NCBI RefSeq assembly: GCF_014334135.1 | Contig: NZ_CP060497.1 | Coordinates: forward strand, 1,860,001-1,924,000 | Reading direction: 5' to 3' | Source: Olivibacter sp. SDN3 | Lineage (GTDB): Bacteria > Bacteroidota > Bacteroidia > Sphingobacteriales > Sphingobacteriaceae | DNA: 64,000 bases | Shown here: positions 28,027-46,578 of the stretch, piece after piece | Layout of the letters: every line of letters begins with the position of its first letter | Numbering within the stretch: the stretch's first letter is position 1 | Translations under genes and position numbers: made by a program | Notes under the pieces: model-generated | Told to the model about the DNA's origin: nothing | The model's database searches: none | The model's input: the letters and a program-made list of their open reading frames with translations, nothing else

Positions 28027-28199
28027 ACCTGTTCTGACAACCTAATAGTCTTCCAAGCAATAACATATAGACTTGCCAATTTTACGCTCATCCTCATCTC
28101 AATAATACTCTTACCTCCTCATTATCAGCCTCTCTTCGTGTTATTTTAACAACGGCCTTAGTTTTTTGAGGGGAAACGTTGTTCTAAATTGAAATATTA

Positions 28200-28231
28200 T
28201 TTGTACTTAATCTAAATAAGCCTTATACTTG
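28200..28231 (+). promoter_or_regulatory. Candidate haem-locus promoter (-33 TTTG / -7 TATACTTG)
   Basis: TTTG at 28200-28203 and TATACTTG at 28224-28231 (one mismatch to TAnnTTTG) are 20 bp apart, as expected of Bacteroidota promoters. A TCTAAAT motif (28211-28217) lies within the spacer, so a bound repressor there would block RNA polymerase. Confidence 0.6.
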
Positions 28232-28238
28232 CCGAGTA

Positions 28239-28260
28239 ATTAATAATGATTCTAAATAAT
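28239..28260 (+). promoter_or_regulatory. Fur-box-like site overlapping the hmuR start
   Basis: The segment 28239-28260 contains an imperfect palindrome around AATGATTCTAAATAAT. Its right arm ATTCTAAATAA is the same heptamer family (TCTAAAT) that recurs at 28183-28189 and 28211-28217. It runs into the ATG at 28259-28261. The pattern resembles AT-rich Fur boxes; assignment to Fur is inference from the haem genes downstream. Confidence 0.5.
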
Positions 28261-30544
28261 GTTGCGATCATTTGGTGTTTGGGCAATAATAATGGGTATA
28301 TACGTACATAGCATAGCACAGCAGGATGAAGCTTTTGTAACTGGTAAGCTTTTGAGCTCAGATGCTAAAGCTGCCCCGAATATCACCGTTTTGGCAAAAG
28401 GTACAAACTACCTTACCCGTACCAATGAACAGGGTATTTACACCTTAAGTCTTCCGGCGGGCTCATATGAGCTGCAATTAAAATGTTTGGGAATTTTAGA
28501 TCAAACAATAGCCATCAAAGTAAAGCCTGCAGAAAAGCTGCAGCTAGATGATATCGTGTTGAAAGCCACCGCCTACGACTTGAACGAAGTGGTGGTAACC
28601 GGTCAATTTGAGCCGCAGTCGCTGAAAAATTCGGTATATCGCATCCGTACCATCGGGCAAGATCAAATTTTGGCTCGAGCTTCGACTTCTGTAGAAAACG
28701 TATTGAATACGGAGTTGGGTATTCGCTTTAGCAATGATATGGCTCTGGGTGAATCTGGAATCGAGCTCATGGGAATGGGCGGAAGAAATGTGAAAGTCAT
28801 GGTAGATGGTTTGCCCATAGTAGACAGAGGTGATTTAGCACAAAGCCTGAGTCAAATAGATATCAATACCATTGAGCGTATAGAGATTGTGGAAGGGCCC
28901 ATGGCAGTAAGTTATGGTACAGATGCCTTAGCAGGAGTGATCAATATCATTACGAAAAAAGTGGAAAGCGACCAATTGCTATTATCGGCGCGCCTACAAG
29001 AGGAAACAATAGCTGAAAACTACGACTTTCTACAAAACGATGGTATCCATAATGCTAATATTAGCGCTTTGTGGGGTAATAAAGGTTGGAAGGCCAGTGT
29101 TTCGGGCAGTAGAAATAATGCAGGCGGTTATGTTGGAGGCGGCTCTGGAGCTATCGATCATTGGATGCCGAAGGATCAATGGTTTGGATCGGGTAGCTTA
29201 GGTTACGGCACGGCCAGATGGGATCTTAATTATCGCTTAGATTATAATAACGAAGATATATTGAATCTGGGAAATTTAAATACCAGCACTTATCGGCAAT
29301 CTCGGGTCAACTACCTTACTGATCGCTGGACACATCAACTCCAAGGAAGATTCATGGCTAATCATCGTTTGTCCTTTAACTTCAGTGGCTCTTATCAGGA
29401 TTATGAACGCCGAACCCGTTCGGTGGTACGGGATTACCGAAATGGTACAACAGAACTTTCCACTAATGCCGGGGCGCAGGATACCGCAACCTTTCTAACT
29501 AGCGTATTAAGGTTAACAGCGCAATACACCGTAGCGGATAATTTTATCTTGCAGCCTGGCTTAGAATACCGATCAGACAAGGGCACCGGACAGCGTATCG
29601 ACGGAGATCCGAGGATTAACGATTATGCTTTCTTTATATCCGGCGAATGGGGATTGACAAGAAATTTATTGATCCGTCCCGGCATGCGATTTATCTATAA
29701 TTCGGTATATGACGCCCCGCCGGTCATTCCTTCTATAAATGCTAAGTGGAGCATAAATGATCAGTTTGATCTGAGGGCTTCCTATGGTCGGGGTTTTCGT
29801 TCCCCTGCTTTACGTGAACTGTATTTCACTTTCTTTGATGCCAATCATGCTGTTGTGGGAAATCCGGATTTAAAAGCAGAACATTCCAATAGCTATCAGG
29901 CCAGTTTGAGCTGGTCGGGTCTGCAGGATGGTACAATGCAATGGATGAGCACCTTAAATGGATTTTATAACGACTTCAACGATCAGATAAACACCGGCAT
30001 AGATCCCAGTCGGCCAACGGTTAATACGTATATTAATATCGATAAATTCCGCACCGCAGGAGGAACCTGGGAAAATAGCTTCTCCTACAAAGAGATTGTA
30101 GCCAAACTGGGGTTCTCCTATATCGGTCGATATAATCGCCTGGCAGATGAAATTGATCATATTCCGAGCATGCGCTGGACACCTGAAGTCAACGCTGTCA
30201 TTAACTATCATATACCGAAATGGAAAGCAGGACTTAATCTTTACTACAAGTTCAACGGACAGCGCATAGGCTTTAATGCCATAGCCGGTGATGACGGTAG
30301 AATAAGTGCCAGAAGGTTTGAAATTCAATCTTACCACACAGCGGATCTTACCTTAAATAAGGTTTTGATGCAAGGTTTGACACTAAGCGGAGGTGTGCGC
30401 AACCTTTTTGATGTAACTACCCTCGATAATACTTCGCTGGGTTCGGGCGGTGCACATGCAACGGATACAGGTCCTATTCCGATCAGCTACGGTAGATCGT
30501 ATTTTCTAGGTTTGAAATATGATATCAATATCCGGAGGCTATAA
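28259..30544 (+). CDS. hmuR: TonB-dependent haem receptor (HmuR-like)
   Basis: A 761-residue outer-membrane receptor. The short signal peptide ends near HSIAQQ. A carboxypeptidase-regulatory-like domain (about 25-105) precedes the plug (about 115-235; GRNVKVMVDGLPI, EIVEGPMAVSYGTDALAGVI). The barrel has the haem-receptor signature: FRSP (513-516, a FRAP-box variant) and NPDL (535-538), with His530 between them, where HemR-type receptors hold a haem-contacting histidine. It would strip haem from host or environmental haemoproteins and pass it to the periplasm. It is first gene of the hmu operon; the next gene, an HmuY-like lipoprotein, follows after 52 bp. Confidence 0.9.
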   Translation: MLRSFGVWAIIMGIYVHSIAQQDEAFVTGKLLSSDAKAAPNITVLAKGTNYLTRTNEQGIYTLSLPAGSYELQLKCLGILDQTIAIKVKPAEKLQLDDIVLKATAYDLNEVVVTGQFEPQSLKNSVYRIRTIGQDQILARASTSVENVLNTELGIRFSNDMALGESGIELMGMGGRNVKVMVDGLPIVDRGDLAQSLSQIDINTIERIEIVEGPMAVSYGTDALAGVINIITKKVESDQLLLSARLQEETIAENYDFLQNDGIHNANISALWGNKGWKASVSGSRNNAGGYVGGGSGAIDHWMPKDQWFGSGSLGYGTARWDLNYRLDYNNEDILNLGNLNTSTYRQSRVNYLTDRWTHQLQGRFMANHRLSFNFSGSYQDYERRTRSVVRDYRNGTTELSTNAGAQDTATFLTSVLRLTAQYTVADNFILQPGLEYRSDKGTGQRIDGDPRINDYAFFISGEWGLTRNLLIRPGMRFIYNSVYDAPPVIPSINAKWSINDQFDLRASYGRGFRSPALRELYFTFFDANHAVVGNPDLKAEHSNSYQASLSWSGLQDGTMQWMSTLNGFYNDFNDQINTGIDPSRPTVNTYINIDKFRTAGGTWENSFSYKEIVAKLGFSYIGRYNRLADEIDHIPSMRWTPEVNAVINYHIPKWKAGLNLYYKFNGQRIGFNAIAGDDGRISARRFEIQSYHTADLTLNKVLMQGLTLSGGVRNLFDVTTLDNTSLGSGGAHATDTGPIPISYGRSYFLGLKYDINIRRL

Positions 30545-30596
30545 CATATACATAAATGCAATACGTAAAACAGGTTTAACCAATAGAAATAATACA

Positions 30597-31637
30597 ATGA
30601 AAAGAATTTACCAAAAAGAGAGCTGGATAGCGTTAGCGCTTATCGTGGCAATGAGTGCTTGCGGAAAAAGCGATGATGTCGCACCTGAGATTCCACCGTC
30701 AGATGGTTCGGTGATGACCTTGGAAGGTGGGGATGGTGGAAATGCAGCAGAAAATGCAGTTTATGTTGATTTTAGCGCAGAAAATCAAGTGCCCGTGAAA
30801 AGGGATTCTTGGGATCTGGCACTTTATACCGGCGATGAATTTCAGGTGAAACTAAATAATATGATTGGCGCGGCCGCCATAGCTACGGGGGAAACCGATT
30901 TAAACGCAGTAAATTCCGAGAACTTTGATATATCAACTTTGGCGGTAGGGCAAGGTCAAGGTACCTTGGATATGATAGATGCTGTTGACGGGTCTATTGA
31001 AGGAACGGTAATTGCACCCATAGCTGAGGACGAAACAGCGAACAAGGTTTATGTTATCAGTACTGCGGGAGGAACAGAAGTCCTGCCGGAAAATGTATAT
31101 AAAGTAAGAGTACTTAGAAGCGACAACGGTGGTTATGCGGTGCAATACGCACAAATTGATGAAAATTCTTTTAACACGATTGAAGTGGAGAAAAATGCAG
31201 ACTACAATTTCAGCTATGCATCGTTTAAAACAGGAGATCTGGTATCTGTAGAGCCAGATAGAACCAACTGGGATATTGTATGGGGATATAGTATGTATTA
31301 TACGGCTAATTTCCCTTATCCTTTTTCTGATTTAGTATTTATTAATCATCTAGGAGGTGTAACAGCAGCAGAAGTATTAGTTGAAGACGGAACATCTTAT
31401 GAAGACTTCGCCGAAAATCACTTGGGTGCAATTACGTGGAGTAATGATATTGATGTAATAGGTTCAAAGTGGCGTGTGACAAGTCCTGAACCAGCGCGAC
31501 GCTTAGAAGATCGCTTTTATGTGATAAAGGATGCAGCAGGCAACGTATATAAGTTAAAATTTAATAGTATGGGACCCGGCGATAGTGGCGAACGTGGCCG
31601 TCCGGAAATCGAATTCCAACTCGTTACGAGAGGATAA
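30597..31637 (+). CDS. hmuY: HmuY-like haem-binding surface lipoprotein
   Basis: I chose the ATG at 30597 (346 residues) over an earlier in-frame ATG at 30519. It gives a proper lipoprotein signal with lipobox VAMSAC (Cys22), and the earlier start would overlap the receptor gene. The mature part is beta-rich and carries HmuY-family features: two W-D motifs (RDSWDLALYTG and TNWDIVWGYSMYYT), and a late segment VIKDAAGNVYKLKFNSM. HmuY proteins act as surface haemophores that hand haem to HmuR. The haem ligands (His or Met) cannot be assigned from sequence alone. It is immediately downstream of the receptor gene. Confidence 0.85.
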   Translation: MKRIYQKESWIALALIVAMSACGKSDDVAPEIPPSDGSVMTLEGGDGGNAAENAVYVDFSAENQVPVKRDSWDLALYTGDEFQVKLNNMIGAAAIATGETDLNAVNSENFDISTLAVGQGQGTLDMIDAVDGSIEGTVIAPIAEDETANKVYVISTAGGTEVLPENVYKVRVLRSDNGGYAVQYAQIDENSFNTIEVEKNADYNFSYASFKTGDLVSVEPDRTNWDIVWGYSMYYTANFPYPFSDLVFINHLGGVTAAEVLVEDGTSYEDFAENHLGAITWSNDIDVIGSKWRVTSPEPARRLEDRFYVIKDAAGNVYKLKFNSMGPGDSGERGRPEIEFQLVTRG

Positions 31638-31677
31638 AGAATTACATGTTTCATGTAGGTTTGGTTGGTTTCAAATA

Positions 31678-31713
31678 TCCGGTCTCGCACCATTGGGAGT
31701 GGTGCAGACCGGA
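31678..31713 (+). terminator. Strong hairpin between hmuY and hmuT
   Basis: Arms of 8 and 6 bp (31678-31685 with 31706-31713; 31687-31692 with 31700-31705), one bulged C, and a 7-nt loop. No U-tract follows. It could be a partial terminator or an mRNA-processing/stability element setting the ratio of surface proteins to transporter. Confidence 0.55.
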
Positions 31714-31943
31714 ATTTGGTAAAACAATGTCTTCCCGATGATCTATTGATGAAAAAACGGAACATAACCTACAAAATCGGCATTCAAAATTTGAAATAGC
31801 ATCTTATCAGTGATTCATGAGCTCGTCGCGGAGCTCCTCGGTTTTGGTTACTTTTCGCGGAAACCTTCGTTAAGGGAAAACATGAATGCCTTTACATATA
31901 AACAATTGATGAAAAAAGTAACATTAATACAGACAATTGACAG
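31714..31943 (+). other. Remainder of the hmuY-hmuT spacer
   Basis: The whole hmuY-hmuT spacer is 306 bp, unusually long for genes of one pathway. After the hairpin it is AT-rich with no reading frame. I find no clear Fur-like box or -7/-33 pair, so hmuTU may depend on readthrough from hmuRY. Confidence 0.45.
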
Positions 31944-32810
31944 ATGAGAAAAATATTTTTTAATATAATCATGCTGCTTTTCGCAGTAACGATTTTTGCC
32001 TGCCGCAGTAGTGATCAGACAACGGGAGATACCCTAGTTGATGATTCTACCCGCATCGTATCCATTAACGGATCGATAACCGAAATTTTGGCAGACCTAG
32101 GTCTGGAAGACCAGATTGTAGGGGTGGATGTTGCCAGTACTTATCCAAAGTCAATTTTGCAGAAGCCAAAAGTAGGGCATAGTACAAAAATTGCTGCAGA
32201 AGGGGTATTAGGGCTCGATCCGGATATCGTAATCGGTATTAACAATGAGGTGAGTTCCGTTATGAAAGATCAATTGACGTCTTCAGGGGTGAAGGTGTTA
32301 CTATTCGATCAAGCGTACTCCGTAGAAGGAACAAAAAGTCTTATTGCCAGCGTCACCGATAGTTTAGGATTTAAACAAAGAGGCGATTCCATCATTCAAG
32401 CACTGGATGCGGATTTAGCGGAGGTAAAGTCGCTGGATGATGCGGCGCCTAAACCAAAGGTATTATTTATCTATGCCCGTGGAACGGGAACCATGATGGT
32501 TGGGGGCGATGACACCCAAGCGGCAAAAGTCATCGAGCTTGCCGGTGGTGAAAATGCGATCACCGGTTTTGCCGACTATAAACCCCTAACGGCCGAAGCG
32601 CTTGTGGCGGCCAACCCTGACGTGATCCTGCTGTTTTCTTCGGGACTGGAAAGCCTGGGGGGAGCAAAAGGCTTATTGGAAGTGCAAGGTGTAAAAGAGA
32701 CCAATGCCGGGAAGAATCAAAAATTTGTTGAAATGGATGGTCAGTTCCTTACCGGCTTCAGTCAACGTTTGGGCAAAGCAGTAAAAGAACTGTCAGAAAA
32801 AATACATTGA
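31944..32810 (+). CDS. hmuT: Haem ABC transporter substrate-binding lipoprotein (HmuT/BtuF family)
   Basis: A 288-residue periplasmic-binding protein tethered by a lipobox (TIFACRSS, Cys20). Class III binding-protein features are clear: RIVSINGSITEILADLGL near the N-terminus, VGVDVASTYP, the connecting long helix, and GGDDTQAAKVIELAGGENAI in the second lobe. The family accepts haem, cobalamin or siderophores; the flanking hmuR, hmuY and hmuS genes favour haem. A YPKS motif (SSTYPKS-type, here STYPKS) lies where HmuT proteins carry the haem-ligating Tyr. The stop codon overlaps the TTG start of the permease gene by 4 bp. Confidence 0.9.
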   Translation: MRKIFFNIIMLLFAVTIFACRSSDQTTGDTLVDDSTRIVSINGSITEILADLGLEDQIVGVDVASTYPKSILQKPKVGHSTKIAAEGVLGLDPDIVIGINNEVSSVMKDQLTSSGVKVLLFDQAYSVEGTKSLIASVTDSLGFKQRGDSIIQALDADLAEVKSLDDAAPKPKVLFIYARGTGTMMVGGDDTQAAKVIELAGGENAITGFADYKPLTAEALVAANPDVILLFSSGLESLGGAKGLLEVQGVKETNAGKNQKFVEMDGQFLTGFSQRLGKAVKELSEKIH

Positions 32811-33844
32811 AAAACTACAGTATCATATTACTTGGATTGGGTGTATTGTTGTTGCTATCAGCTGCATTATCGGTTTGCGTCGGTGCTGTAAAAATTAATG
32901 CCGGAGAGCTGAGATCTTTAGTCGCCTATCGCTTAAGTATAAGCGATGAGATCAATTTTACGAGGCAACAGGAAGCTGTGCTGTTCAGCTTGCGATTACC
33001 GAGAGTGCTATTGGGCATTCTGGTAGGAAGCAGCTTAGCTATAGCAGGGGCCGCTATGCAGGGCCTTTTCAGAAATCCATTGGCTGAACCTGGGTTAATA
33101 GGTATTTCCTCGGGAGCTTCCCTGTTCGCTGTATTGGTGATTGTTTTAGAAGTCAAGTTTTTAACAATAGCTTTTGGTTATCATGCCTTGGCGATAGCCG
33201 CTTTTGCTGGTGCATGTATCACCACTTTTTTGGTCTACAGCGTTGCCAATGTTGGCGGAAAAACAAATATTGCAACTTTATTATTGGTGGGTATTGCCAT
33301 CAATGCACTTGCCGGGTCCTTTACCGGATTGCTAACTTATATGTCAAGTGATGAACAATTGCGCAATATTACTTTCTGGAGTTTAGGCAGTTTGGGAGGA
33401 GCGAGCTGGAAAACGGTGACCAGTATTCTGCCTTTTGTGGTCATCCCACTGATTGGCTTGCCCTTGATAGCTAAACAGCTTAATGCAATAGCCCTTGGAG
33501 AAGCTCAGGCAGGACATATGGGGGTCAATGTGAGCCTCCTGAAGAAGTTGATTATTGTTTTAGCTACCTTGGGTGTAGGAGCATCGGTCGCGGTGTCAGG
33601 TGTGATTGGCTTCGTTGGGTTGGTCGTGCCACATATTTTAAGAATGGCCTTTTCTGCCGATAATCGATTGATAATTCCCGGTTCGGCATTATTGGGAGCT
33701 ACCGTGTTGGTTTTGGCAGATTTAGTGTCCAGGACCTTGGTGGCGCCGGCAGAGCTTCCAATAGGGATATTGACGGCAATGATTGGAACACCCATATTTA
33801 TGTATATCATTTTCAGGGAGCGAAGAAAAAGAAACTGGAATTAA
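32807..33844 (+). CDS. hmuU: FecCD-family haem ABC transporter permease
   Basis: A 345-residue inner-membrane protein with about 10 transmembrane helices. FecCD signatures are RLPRVLLGILVGSSLAIAGA, QGLFRNPLAEPGLIGIS, and GVIGFVGLVVPHI. The start is TTG at 32807 inside TTGA, overlapping the hmuT stop; no ATG lies nearby that would keep the conserved N-terminal helix, so TTG with translational coupling is the best choice. It would form the homodimeric channel through which haem passes to the cytoplasm, driven by HmuV. Confidence 0.92.
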   Translation: MKNYSIILLGLGVLLLLSAALSVCVGAVKINAGELRSLVAYRLSISDEINFTRQQEAVLFSLRLPRVLLGILVGSSLAIAGAAMQGLFRNPLAEPGLIGISSGASLFAVLVIVLEVKFLTIAFGYHALAIAAFAGACITTFLVYSVANVGGKTNIATLLLVGIAINALAGSFTGLLTYMSSDEQLRNITFWSLGSLGGASWKTVTSILPFVVIPLIGLPLIAKQLNAIALGEAQAGHMGVNVSLLKKLIIVLATLGVGASVAVSGVIGFVGLVVPHILRMAFSADNRLIIPGSALLGATVLVLADLVSRTLVAPAELPIGILTAMIGTPIFMYIIFRERRKRNWN

Positions 33845-33882
33845 GTTTTCGTATTTTTTTGATATCCCGAATTTGATTATTA

Positions 33883-33904
33883 ACTTAGAATGATTTTAAA
33901 TAAG
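33883..33904 (+). promoter_or_regulatory. Fur-box-like palindrome upstream of hmuV
   Basis: CTTAGAATGATTTTAAATAA is an imperfect palindrome centred on the G of AATGATT. It matches the element at the hmuR start in layout (…AAT-G-ATT…AAATAA). It lies 47 bp before the hmuV ATG, in the 106-bp hmuU-hmuV gap, and suggests a second iron-controlled promoter for hmuVS. Confidence 0.5.
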
Positions 33905-33950
33905 AGGTTTGTGTGTTGTACATATAATATACGGCTTATTCAAATGTGTC

Positions 33951-34733
33951 ATGATTAAAGTAGAACATTTGTCATATAACGTTGGTAAGAAAGTATTGCT
34001 TCAAGATATCGGCTTCGATGTGCAAGCTGGAGAGCTTTTATCCATAATTGGGGCAAATGGTGCGGGAAAAAGTACCTTACTCAAGTTATTATGTAAAGAT
34101 GGGCAAGCAAGCAGTGGAGAAATTTTCATAAAAGGCAATCCTATCCGAAACTATAAATTGAAGGATTTGTCCAAATTTAGGTCCGTGCTGAGCCAGCATA
34201 ATACGATTTCCGTTTCTTTTACTGTTCATGAGATAGTGATGATGGGACGTTACCCGCATTTTGAACACCAGCCCTCGGCGAATGATATACAGGTGGTGAA
34301 AGCAGCAATGGAGGAAACGGGAGTAACTTCTTTTAGTAACCGGGATTATAATACCCTATCGGGAGGGGAGCAGCAACGGGTACAACTGGCTCGGGTAATT
34401 GCGCAAATCTATGATCAGCCACAAGGGTTGTTATTGCTAGATGAACCAACAAACGGATTGGATCTATTGTATCAGCAGCAGGTTTTGCAATTGGCACGTT
34501 CTTTAGCCAATCGAGGCTTCTGTGTCGTATGTATACTGCATGATATCAATTTTGCTTCCCGTTATTCGGACAAAGTATTATTATTAAAAAATGGACAAAA
34601 AATAGCATTCGGGACACCGATAGAAGTGATCACATGTGATCATATACATGAAGCTTTTAATATTCGGGTTGAATTGATGGCAGGGGAAAATACCCGATGC
34701 CCATTAATTATGCCCAGTGCAATTTTAAACTGA
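33951..34733 (+). CDS. hmuV: Haem ABC transporter ATP-binding protein
   Basis: A 260-residue ABC ATPase when read from the ATG at 33951 (MIKVEHLSYNVG), the standard start for this family. An upstream TTG at 33909 would add 14 residues with no family similarity. Walker A is GANGAGKST (34-42), the Q-loop follows at LSQHN, the signature is LSGGEQQRVQLARV, and Walker B LLLLDEPTNGLD with the H-loop at LHD. It powers haem import through HmuU. hmuS follows 6 bp downstream. Confidence 0.94.
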   Translation: MIKVEHLSYNVGKKVLLQDIGFDVQAGELLSIIGANGAGKSTLLKLLCKDGQASSGEIFIKGNPIRNYKLKDLSKFRSVLSQHNTISVSFTVHEIVMMGRYPHFEHQPSANDIQVVKAAMEETGVTSFSNRDYNTLSGGEQQRVQLARVIAQIYDQPQGLLLLDEPTNGLDLLYQQQVLQLARSLANRGFCVVCILHDINFASRYSDKVLLLKNGQKIAFGTPIEVITCDHIHEAFNIRVELMAGENTRCPLIMPSAILN

Positions 34734-34739
34734 TAAAAA

Positions 34740-35780
34740 ATGGATTCTACAAAAGCGTCTTTAAGAGAAAAGTATAATACATTCAAAACACAACATCCAA
34801 AAGTACGTATACGGGATGCCGCCAAAGAACTTGGTGTAACAGAGGCAGAGCTGGTCGCCGTATCTACAGGCACCATACAGCTCAGAAGGGAAATAGAAGA
34901 GATACTGAAAGAGGTGCCTTCTTTAGGTTATGTGATGGCTTTAACGCGGAATGATTTTGCCGTACACGAGCGGAAGGGCGAATACCGTAAAGTAGGTGTT
35001 AATGGCCATGTTGGCTTGGTCGTGAACCCGGATATCGATTTACGTCTATTCTTAAATGCATGGAAGTTTGCATTTTCGGTAAATGAAAATGGACGGAAAA
35101 GCCTCCAGTTTTTTGGCAAAGACGGGGAGGCTGTCCATAAAATCTACTTGCAAGATCAAAGTAACGAAGAGGCTTATAACCAACTGGTAGCAAACTTCAA
35201 AGCCGAAGATCAGGAGGAATCTTTGGTTATAGAAGATACACCGGGAAAAATGGATGAGAAACCTGACAATGAAATAGATGTCGATGCTTTTAAGGCTGCT
35301 TGGTTGGCTTTAAAAGACACCCATGAATTCCACGGGATGTTACGTAAGTTTGGTGTAACCCGCACGCAGGCTATGCGTTTGGCACCGGATAGGCATACCC
35401 ATAAAATCGACCTCGGTGTGCTGAAAAGTATTTTGGAAGCGGTCTCGGCAAGATCCTTGGAAATTATGGTCTTTATCGGAAATAAAGGTTGTATACAGAT
35501 TCATACCGGGCAGGCAAAACGGCTCTTACAAACAGGTCCTTGGTTCAATGTGCTTGATCCCGAATTCAATATGCATCTTCGGGAAGATGCCATAGAAAAT
35601 ATTTGGGTAGTGAAAAAACCTACAGACGACGGCCATGTAACGAGTATCGAGGCTTATGATGCAGCGGGGGATATTATTGTGCAGTTTTTTGGTAAACGTA
35701 AACCTGGAATTCCTGAGCGGGAGGACTGGAGAAAAGTTATCGCTGACTCCATGAATGCAGATCAGCTTTTGGAAGCTTAA
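34740..35780 (+). CDS. hmuS: HemS/ChuS-type cytoplasmic haem-handling protein
   Basis: A 346-residue soluble protein made of two similar halves (about 1-165 and 180-345), as in HemS/ChuS. Each half has a segment such as SLQFFGKDGEAVHKIYLQD or EIMVFIGNKGCIQIHTGQ, and a later WVVKKPTDDGHVTSIEAYD. Family members bind haem after import and either degrade it or pass it on. It has no signal peptide. The spacing of 6 bp to hmuV and a strong terminator downstream mark it as the last gene of the operon. In Porphyromonas the name hmuS is used for an unrelated CobN-like protein, so the symbol follows the enterobacterial sense. Confidence 0.9.
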   Translation: MDSTKASLREKYNTFKTQHPKVRIRDAAKELGVTEAELVAVSTGTIQLRREIEEILKEVPSLGYVMALTRNDFAVHERKGEYRKVGVNGHVGLVVNPDIDLRLFLNAWKFAFSVNENGRKSLQFFGKDGEAVHKIYLQDQSNEEAYNQLVANFKAEDQEESLVIEDTPGKMDEKPDNEIDVDAFKAAWLALKDTHEFHGMLRKFGVTRTQAMRLAPDRHTHKIDLGVLKSILEAVSARSLEIMVFIGNKGCIQIHTGQAKRLLQTGPWFNVLDPEFNMHLREDAIENIWVVKKPTDDGHVTSIEAYDAAGDIIVQFFGKRKPGIPEREDWRKVIADSMNADQLLEA

Positions 35781-45423: not shown

Positions 45424-46074
45424 TTACTTGATCTCAATGGTGCCTATATATACGCTATCCGAACTGTGATTACTGCCATCGGTAGCAAAAAAAGCGAGAT
45501 AGGTATGAAAAATATCTCCACGTTTAAATTTGGCATTCGGCAAATAAAGTCTATCTTCCCCGCTTTCCCGAAAATTACCGGAAGTATGAAAGTTAAGCAT
45601 CCTATCAAAATCTGTTATGAGCAGTAACGCTCTGTCTAGGCCATGCTCATTTTCTGATTTCCCCCTATATGCCCAACGGAATAAAACCTGATCATTTTCC
45701 TCTAGTGTGACGCTGGTTTCTCTAGGAGGTGCTAAGATGCCGCCACTCATCATGAATTTTTCTGGGATAATACGATAACCGGCATCGTCCTCGGTAACAG
45801 CGTTTTTGATATTATAGGACATTGCTACATTATGGCCGGTGCGATTCGGAGAGTGATTCATGAAACCCATTCTCACAAGTGGTACAATAGAGCTTAACAC
45901 GTCTTGCATGAAGCGAAATTTCGATCGTTGCTTGGCTTGCCCGGCAGTTGGTTTCCGGCTGCGGTTAATTCGTGGTAAACTTCGTATATAATCAATACCC
46001 TTCCATTTACAGAAGACCACATTGCCTACTTTTCCGGAGACAGGGCCATTTACACCGTTGATTACTTTTCCCAT
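45424..46074 (-). CDS. DUF6266 family protein
   Basis: A 216-residue protein when read from the ATG at 46074; an ATG further upstream (46131) would add 19 residues without family character. The opening MGKVINGVNGPVSGKVG and the following VVFCKWKGIDYIRSLP are hallmarks of DUF6266, as is RSRKPTAGQAKQRSKF. The C-terminal half is beta-rich (LFRWAYRG, DRALLLITDFD). Function is unknown. Members are numerous and scattered in Sphingobacteriaceae genomes. There is no signal peptide. It stands alone with 189 bp on one side and about 500 bp on the other. Confidence 0.85.
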   Translation of the reverse strand: MGKVINGVNGPVSGKVGNVVFCKWKGIDYIRSLPRINRSRKPTAGQAKQRSKFRFMQDVLSSIVPLVRMGFMNHSPNRTGHNVAMSYNIKNAVTEDDAGYRIIPEKFMMSGGILAPPRETSVTLEENDQVLFRWAYRGKSENEHGLDRALLLITDFDRMLNFHTSGNFRESGEDRLYLPNAKFKRGDIFHTYLAFFATDGSNHSSDSVYIGTIEIK

Positions 46075-46578
46075 AATACTATTATTTATCCGATACCTAA
46101 TTTGTTCTAAGTATATACAAATTCTGAACAACTTCCAAATTAAGTCTGAAAATGAATATATATTTTTAAAATAAAAAAGGGACTTTAGTCGCTTTTATCC
46201 GAATAAGGTCCGAACAAAACCCTATTAATATCTGAATAAAACCCTATTTAATATTGAAATTAATGGTCAATTGGTCAGTAGTAGATTCGGAGCACCACGA
46301 AGCATGTCCCGGAAATTTAAGCATGAAGAATATTTTTCTTAAGTATTATTACGAAGTGTGGAAGGGGTTCTTCCTGGTTTAACTAGATTTCTGGCGTCTA
46401 TATGCTTTCCAATAGGTTGATCAATCTTTTCAAAGTTAATGTACACCTTGCGATGAGTATATCTGAATGTGATAGCAAATCATCAACTGACGACGCAAGC
46501 AGAAATAAGCATTATTCGTTATTTTTTGCAGATGTCCATATTCCGTAGGGGGAAGGACGCTGATTTTAACGCATGACA
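46075..46578. other. Gene-poor region upstream of the DUF6266 gene
   Basis: About 500 bp, strongly AT-rich and without a plausible frame of its own. It contains a pair of imperfect tandem repeats (46209-46253). It must hold the DUF6266 promoter. The composition is lower in GC than the neighbouring genes by eye. Confidence 0.5.
46209..46253. repeat. Imperfect tandem repeat, unit 22-23 bp
   Basis: Copy 1 (46209-46230) and copy 2 (46231-46253) share TC(C/T)GAA(C/T)AAAACCCTATT and an AT-rich end. A further partial unit, TCCGAATAAGG, precedes them at 46198-46208. Confidence 0.6.

Follow-up and report, generated by a model that had tools for sequence, protein, structure and literature searches.

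How does a surface haemophore of the HmuY family come to share one locus with an ATP-binding cassette (ABC) haem importer and a HemS-type cytoplasmic protein, and how unusual is this combination? The question arises from a stretch of 64,000 nucleotides (nt) of Olivibacter sp. SDN3 (contig NZ_CP060497.1, positions 1,860,001 to 1,924,000), hereafter the window, which is part of a complete 6.12 Mb genome. A haem-uptake set of six genes lies on its forward strand at 28259-35780, coding in turn for a TonB-dependent receptor (R), HmuY (Y), a haem-binding lipoprotein (T), a permease (U), an ATPase (V) and HemS (S) (Table 1). An earlier note, written from the sequence alone, had described a six-gene haem locus in pathway order, with an HmuY-like haemophore and a HemS-type last gene. 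The positions and order of the open reading frames (ORFs) were confirmed, and coordinates, order and the Pfam, NCBIfam and PDB matches agree with that description, including PF14064 for the haemophore and HemS for the last gene. The set is real and probably works in the capture of haem for its iron. We consider it very likely that this Sphingobacteriaceae bacterium acquires haem iron through it as a Fur-regulated operon with two units, an outer R-Y and an inner TUV-HemS. The surface lipoprotein HmuY would capture haem and pass it to the TonB-dependent receptor, which would use its FRSP-His530-NPDL loop; the importer HmuUV would then be supplied with haem by the lipoprotein HmuT, and in the cytoplasm HemS would take the haem over and hand it on or degrade it. 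The system is ordinary and widespread in the phylum; what makes it worth attention is the doubled HmuY, together with cassette exchange.

Table 1. Features of the haem-uptake locus, in positions of the window (aa, amino acids).
Feature	Position	Strand	Details
hmuR-like TonB-dependent receptor	28259-30544	+	761 aa; CarboxypepD-like N-terminal extension; cassette A receptor
Receptor motif	FRSP 29795-29806; His530 codon 29846-29848; NPDL 29861-29872	+	FRSP at residue 513, NPDL at residue 535
hmuY	30597-31637	+	346 aa lipoprotein, Cys22; two tandem HmuY repeats
First HmuY repeat	30750-31139	+	Pfam match 36.6 bits, cut-off 27
Second HmuY repeat	31125-31616	+	Pfam match 45.2 bits, cut-off 27
hmuT-like haem-binding lipoprotein	31944-32810	+	288 aa; Peripla_BP_2
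hmuU-like FecCD permease	32807-33844	+	345 aa; TTG start overlaps hmuT stop
hmuV haem ABC ATPase	33951-34733	+	ABC_tran; start at 33948 or 33951
hemS/hmuS-type cytoplasmic haem protein	34740-35780	+	346 aa; two HemS domains
Fur-type box (candidate)	28239-28257	+	ATTAATAATGATTCTAAAT; 2 mismatches to ATTTAGAATNATTCTAAAT; ends one base ahead of receptor ATG
Weaker Fur-type palindrome copy	28199-28217	+	4 mismatches to ATTTAGAATNATTCTAAAT; overlaps -33 element
Bacteroidota-type promoter pattern	28200-28231	+	TTTG 28200-28203, 20 nt, TATACTTG 28224-28231
Strong RNA hairpin	31671-31719	+	3' of hmuY, before hmuT

The binding protein, permease and ATPase are all nearest to solved haem importers, as for Yersinia-type HmuTUV. 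By sequence, the best solved relatives of HmuT are the binding proteins 5gj3 and 5b58 and HmuT 3md9, those of HmuU are the haemin permeases 5b57 and 4g1u, and that of HmuV is HmuV 4g1u_C. HmuV also exceeds the curated NCBIfam cut-off for haem ABC ATPases (NF010068; 300.7 against 261 bits). The sixth gene codes for a two-domain HemS (Pfam HemS, 4.7e-79, plus ChuX_HutX), not for the CobN-like HmuS of the Porphyromonas-type operon, and its best solved relatives are the haemin-degrading factor 4imh, followed by HemS 2j0p. His195, which aligns with residue 196 of 2j0p (numbers counted along the alignment), and Arg102 are invariant in 8/8 aligned sequences; we take the former to be the axial His and both to have a role with haem. 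Haem binding or degradation is the predicted activity of this protein. The receptor combines Pfam Plug and TonB barrel domains with the CarboxypepD-like extension, and the boxes that the earlier note had picked out were found, with His530 between them. They are of the FRAP/NPNL type with an intervening His, the motif class of TonB-dependent haem receptors.

The haemophore proved to be doubled. HmuY probably starts at ATG 30597 and not at 30519, as the ORF from 30519 overlaps R. The protein matches PF14064 with 81.9 bits against a cut-off of 27 (7e-23), in two stretches that each exceed the cut-off. A phylum-wide PF14064 scan listed the second repeat alone for the source genome, and a search of the whole genome with the same family returned this HmuY gene alone. 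All 32 aligned relatives match the HmuY family as whole proteins, and Cys22, from which the lipoprotein signal was judged, is invariant among them. With hhalign, the two halves aligned to each other over 49 columns (probability 65.6%). Against the short HmuYs of cassette B (see below), the probability was 87.2% for the first half (58 columns) and 97.2% for the second (113 columns). The main evidence for the repeat is therefore the pair of Pfam stretches. An AlphaFold2 model of the whole protein reached a predicted local distance difference test (pLDDT) of 90.1 and a predicted template modelling (pTM) score of 0.85. Eight HmuY-type entries headed its VIA list (Z 12.4-14.3, root-mean-square deviation 2.6-3.6, 134-158 residues), and residues 34-345 of the model spanned 35-216 of the 3h8t chain. 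The C-terminal half modelled alone (pLDDT 92.6) matched HmuY structures with Z 7.5-8.3 over 110-121 residues, and 3h8t from residue 62 onward only. Foldseek ranked HmuY first for the whole model, with low template modelling (TM) scores (0.15-0.25 by query), and returned no match below E 0.001 for the C-terminal half, again with low TM-scores. One reading of these models is that the N-terminal strand belongs to the second barrel and completes it, which would interlock the repeats; weighing against it, Z drops with length anyway and the Foldseek TM-scores were low for both models.

To see how common the arrangement is, we used an even sample of 345 Bacteroidota genomes, in which HmuY was matched in 119 and HemS in 34, 33 of the latter over the cut-off. 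HmuY lies in the same locus in 29 of the 33 sampled genomes with an over-cut-off HemS, the window's genome included. The surroundings of HemS were examined in 33 matched genomes besides the window's, and one (G279, locus L095, HemS below the cut-off) was dropped. Of the remaining 32 loci, 31 had T, U and V no more than 7 kb from HemS and 28 had HmuY within the examined stretch; 14 showed the order R-Y-T-U-V-S, uninterrupted by any of the six, and 10 the order S-T-U-V. In a second set, the named loci (the best 80 of 593 confirmed; seven are shorter than 14 kb, which lowers the R and HmuY counts), 73 loci had T-U-V-S, 59 had some HmuY and 45 had R-Y-T-U-V-S. This order disregards other genes in between, and in some Chryseobacterium loci V is separated from S by about 0.7 kb. 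The named genera include Parapedobacter, Pedobacter, Chryseobacterium, Hymenobacter, Mucilaginibacter and Sphingobacterium; Dyadobacter loci of this set have TUVS without R and Y. The two sets overlap slightly (L173 is from the genome of L090, and L171 from that of L074). Haemophore, ABC importer and HemS together are thus the ordinary arrangement for HemS-bearing Bacteroidota. The earlier note had presented the locus as a Bacteroidota haemophore joined to an enterobacterial-type module; the gene combination stands, and the idea of an unusual chimera does not.

A recent chimera, in which an imported enterobacterial hmuTUV-hemS was joined to a native hmuRY, would fit the best solved relatives of T, U, V and S, which are presumably proteobacterial, although the PDB holds few others. 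We consider it extremely improbable: TUVS accompanies HmuY across the phylum sample, the G+C content of the six-gene locus resembles that of the rest of the window, and HemS groups with other Sphingobacteriaceae. In the HemS tree, the window falls in a six-row Sphingobacteriaceae clade (support 100/99), with L123, another member of the family, placed outside it. The window's HemS is 65% identical to that of Parapedobacter luteus, 46% to 4imh and 37% to 2j0p, which we take to be Yersinia HemS; these last two, whose species are given as we presume them, were the only sequences from outside the phylum in the comparison. A recent enterobacterial import of HemS is accordingly unsupported.

In 85 loci a receptor is paired with HmuY, and these receptors fell into two groups by their score against the window's receptor: cassette A (>150 bits; 52 rows, including the window) and cassette B (the other 33, at most 103 bits). 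The two types of receptor are distant relatives, approximately 25% identical in Parapedobacter. In the alignment, read by eye, His530 and a box of FR[SA]P or NRFP type are kept in 52/52 cassette A receptors, two rows repeating the genome of another row, whereas cassette B receptors have Tyr at position 530 in 30/30 aligned sequences, with FKAP-like boxes and a longer loop. The motif count omits three of the 85 receptors (L064, L114 and L148, all below 60 bits); L148, truncated where its contig ends, probably belongs to cassette A. The HmuY partners measure 325-487 aa in cassette A; in cassette B they are shorter than 260 aa in 25/33 loci and 354-425 aa in the other eight. Inspection by eye shows a His in 17 of the 25 short ones, within the segment that aligns with the His166 region of 3h8t. 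Four loci of one phylum group (L079, L085, L086 and L087; group f23) have two-domain HmuYs of 354-357 aa paired with cassette B receptors. Because two-domain HmuYs accompany cassette B receptors as well, HmuY may have been doubled on more than one occasion.

The earlier note had also asked whether the receptor-haemophore pair and TUVS have different histories. They do in so far as two R-Y cassettes alternate over one core, with exchange inside the Bacteroidota. On a TUVS tree of 57 hand-chosen rows out of 113, which gave long-branch warnings, the A/B label of 48 rows requires at least 7 changes; a careful tree was built from 21 of those rows. In this smaller tree, Parapedobacter luteus (A) is sister to Parapedobacter indicus (B) with support 99/97, and Parapedobacter tibetensis (B) lies outside them (100/100). 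An approximately unbiased (AU) test of the window, P. luteus and Sphingobacterium CZ-2 as a single TUVS clade gave p 3e-7, a supporting value only, since the hypothesis was chosen after the tree was seen and contains one long branch. The DNA of P. indicus and P. luteus tells the same story: the upstream flank is 74% identical, a 72-bp stretch that holds the promoter and ends at the receptor start is 83% identical, R-Y gives no match at blastn E 1e-10, and identity resumes at 72% from early hmuT through HemS. Among the three species, the T, U, V and S proteins are 73-87% identical. The receptor is 84% identical between P. indicus and P. tibetensis, and 25-26% between either and P. luteus (25.5% for P. 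indicus), whose receptor is 56% identical to the window's. The HmuY label is weaker for P. indicus and P. tibetensis because their proteins score just below the Pfam cut-off (23.9 and 26.6 against 27); when the whole genomes were searched with PF14064 (E 0.001), P. indicus gave no HmuY and P. tibetensis only a different gene. This is a clean exchange, the R-Y cassette having been swapped within conserved flanks between Parapedobacter species. More generally, R-Y has been exchanged several times and TUVS is the stable core. Transfer of hmuY/hmuR has also been proposed for Porphyromonas (PMC12106395; cited papers are represented throughout by passages of their text).

Additional HmuY-like genes were seen in several loci. 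Five loci of Mucilaginibacter and Pedobacter steynii (L113, L116, L123, L128 and L139) have two adjoining HmuY genes (about 220 and 250 aa) that adjoin a cassette B receptor on the strand opposite TUVS, and three of them (L116, L123 and L139) have an additional HmuY-like gene of 183-185 aa ahead of T. In L069, L071-L073 and L076, and in 18 of the 80 named loci, all Chryseobacterium, a second long HmuY-like gene lies divergently upstream of the receptor. Where the end of the locus leaves it whole it codes for 412-435 aa, with a signal-peptide-like start and no lipobox Cys by eye; its product is possibly a secreted haemophore with a common control region. P. luteus (L180) and P. tibetensis (L181) have a 170-aa HmuY-like gene between what appear by eye to be genes for ribosomal protein L19 and an amidohydrolase, with no receptor in the 3.4 kb examined.

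Fur control of the operon is suggested by a box at the receptor start. Searching from 250 nt upstream to 30 nt inside the receptor ORF, we found ATTTAGAATNATTCTAAAT with at most 3 mismatches in 68/85 loci, against 2/1700 shuffled regions. Upstream of hmuT, a box of this type (at most 3 mismatches) occurred in just 2/107 loci, and the classical Fur box had no match in the window at the same tolerance. The element TATACTTG is one mismatch from TAnnTTTG, the promoter consensus of Bacteroidota. The promoter pattern, weak alone, is weakly enriched (20/85 loci against 156/1700 shuffles, or about 8/85 expected), and the Fur-type box stands at one of two neighbouring offsets in 17 of the 20 loci that have it. 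The ATTTAGAATNATTCTAAAT consensus agrees with the published Fur box of Riemerella anatipestifer, ATTTAGAATTATCCTAAAT, as given in passages of PMC5609570 and PMC10986502. Between hmuY and hmuT, the fold of 31638-31740 has -37.1 kcal/mol (z -4.12; 0/200 shuffles equally stable); an ungapped repeat finder listed no hairpin after hmuY. The hairpin is a possible processing or attenuation point ahead of hmuT, and perhaps resembles the mRNA structures described between hmu genes of Porphyromonas gingivalis (PMC12106395).

Several observations weigh against a Fur-regulated haem operon with exchangeable cassettes. The ATTTAGAATNATTCTAAAT consensus was found by eye and written after the window had been viewed, then tested, and the named scan contributed 57 of the 85 loci, with Chryseobacterium frequent among these. 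The cassette labels are strongly clustered on the TUVS tree (A: 8 changes against 18.4 in shuffles, 0/500 as low), and the cassettes are mostly co-inherited with the core, exchange being the exception. The receptor is far under the curated haem-receptor cut-offs (TIGR01785, 140.1 against 316.85; TIGR01786, 146.8 against 323.75), and for this reason motif and context are what its haem specificity is judged from. A single-sequence phmmer search of HmuY against the PDB gave chance matches alone. No His or Met of repeat 2 stands where His134 and His166 of 3h8t align (the loops align poorly and repeat 1 is outside the alignment); we take these two residues, in presumed numbering, to be the haem ligand positions of that HmuY. 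Neither does any His or Met column reach 60% in the 32 aligned A-type HmuYs, the start Met excepted. Haem binding by this HmuY is accordingly a prediction. Elsewhere, the source genome has a ferrochelatase gene, a 188-aa haem oxygenase-like gene and one CobN-like chelatase gene of 1325 aa outside the window (G000:C1:5591179-5594319, minus strand), given which other haem routes may exist. Because of these genes, haem would more likely be an iron source than a required cofactor.

The low receptor scores, and the fact that the known His/Met ligands were not seen, would suit a receptor-HmuY pair that imports something other than free haem, such as another porphyrin or haem in a special carrier, with TUVS alone as the haem module; some HmuYs do bind the protoporphyrin ring without coordinating the iron (PMC12106395). 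Yet His530 and the FR[SA]P/NRFP box are kept in all cassette A rows and the cassette adjoins a haem importer in nearly all loci (loci chosen for HemS, however), and we regard this explanation as very improbable. That no His/Met pair is conserved among the aligned relatives (such a pair is not universal in the HmuY family) bears also on the idea that HmuY is an accessory lipoprotein of the receptor rather than a haemophore, one or both repeats being structural. A tandem and perhaps interlocked fold, as modelled, would agree with such a role, but both repeats exceed the family cut-off and the aligned relatives all match the family as whole proteins, which leaves it unlikely though the stronger of these two alternatives. 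A haemophore feeding a haem receptor is the reading that we keep.

The Yersinia hmuRSTUV/hemRSTUV systems share with the window locus the families of receptor, binding protein, permease, ATPase and HemS. We know of no HmuY in them, and the binding protein is a lipoprotein in the window locus, unlike in the Yersinia system. Their gene order is RSTUV (named in PMC12106395) and that of the window RYTUVS. Porphyromonas and Bacteroides hmuYRSTUV is alike in having an HmuY lipoprotein haemophore adjoining a TonB-dependent receptor. There, however, HmuS is a CobN-like de-chelatase, a difference already drawn in the earlier note (PMC13227078, PMC12106395), HmuU is ExbB-like, and HmuT and HmuV are not this ABC importer, according to passages of these papers and PMC12583661. 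In the window locus, the receptor precedes a doubled HmuY, and an ABC importer and HemS follow. In Flavobacterium psychrophilum, HfpR-HfpY is described as an iron-regulated receptor-HmuY operon, and HfpY binds one haem. HfpR has an extended L7 loop and a partial motif, like cassette B, and BfpR resembles the cassette A receptor in its N-terminal extension and in keeping FRAP/NxxL and the His (PMC9331221). The available passages on its Hmu system report hfpR and hfpY alone, with a DoxX-family gene in between, unlike the window. In R. anatipestifer, hmuY and hmuR are reported to be Fur-regulated, like the candidate control here; in the passages at hand, ATTTAGAATTATCCTAAAT-type boxes are printed for other receptor genes and a TUV-HemS linkage of hmuY-hmuR is not mentioned, unlike the window locus.

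Published HmuY work, as far as text passages represent it, centres on host-associated anaerobes with a CobN-type HmuS, plus fish and duck pathogens. HmuYs of Cytophagia, Flavobacteria and Sphingobacteria have been placed in two clades, read as an ancient duplication (PMC3699645), and the passages of that phylogeny mention neither tandem HmuY nor a TUV-HemS core. Our literature search, mainly of openly readable text passages, found no account of the HmuY-TUV-HemS arrangement or of tandem HmuY. We tentatively propose, as a possibility that we hold less probable than its contrary, that haem uptake in Bacteroidota consists of a fixed TUV-HemS core with interchangeable receptor-haemophore cassettes, and that the haemophore here is a fused, strand-swapped HmuY pair, its second repeat completed by the N-terminal strand, which binds haem without the known His/Met pair. 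If so, a cassette exchange would bring in a different haem source and leave the inner pathway as it is. The ABC importer and HemS version, with its doubled haemophore and swapped cassettes, offers a natural comparison for HmuY's own contribution, and the same comparison bears on how the haem source could shift with the cytoplasmic steps untouched.

General scans added little to the picture. Between 27900 and 36100 there was no excess of sigma-70 matches (16 against 18.7 in shuffles) or terminator matches (9 against 7.3), and an Rfam scan of the window gave no family at the gathering threshold. Away from the locus, the window holds a minus-strand gene (45424-46131) for a DUF6266 protein (4.4e-30), a family of no known function.

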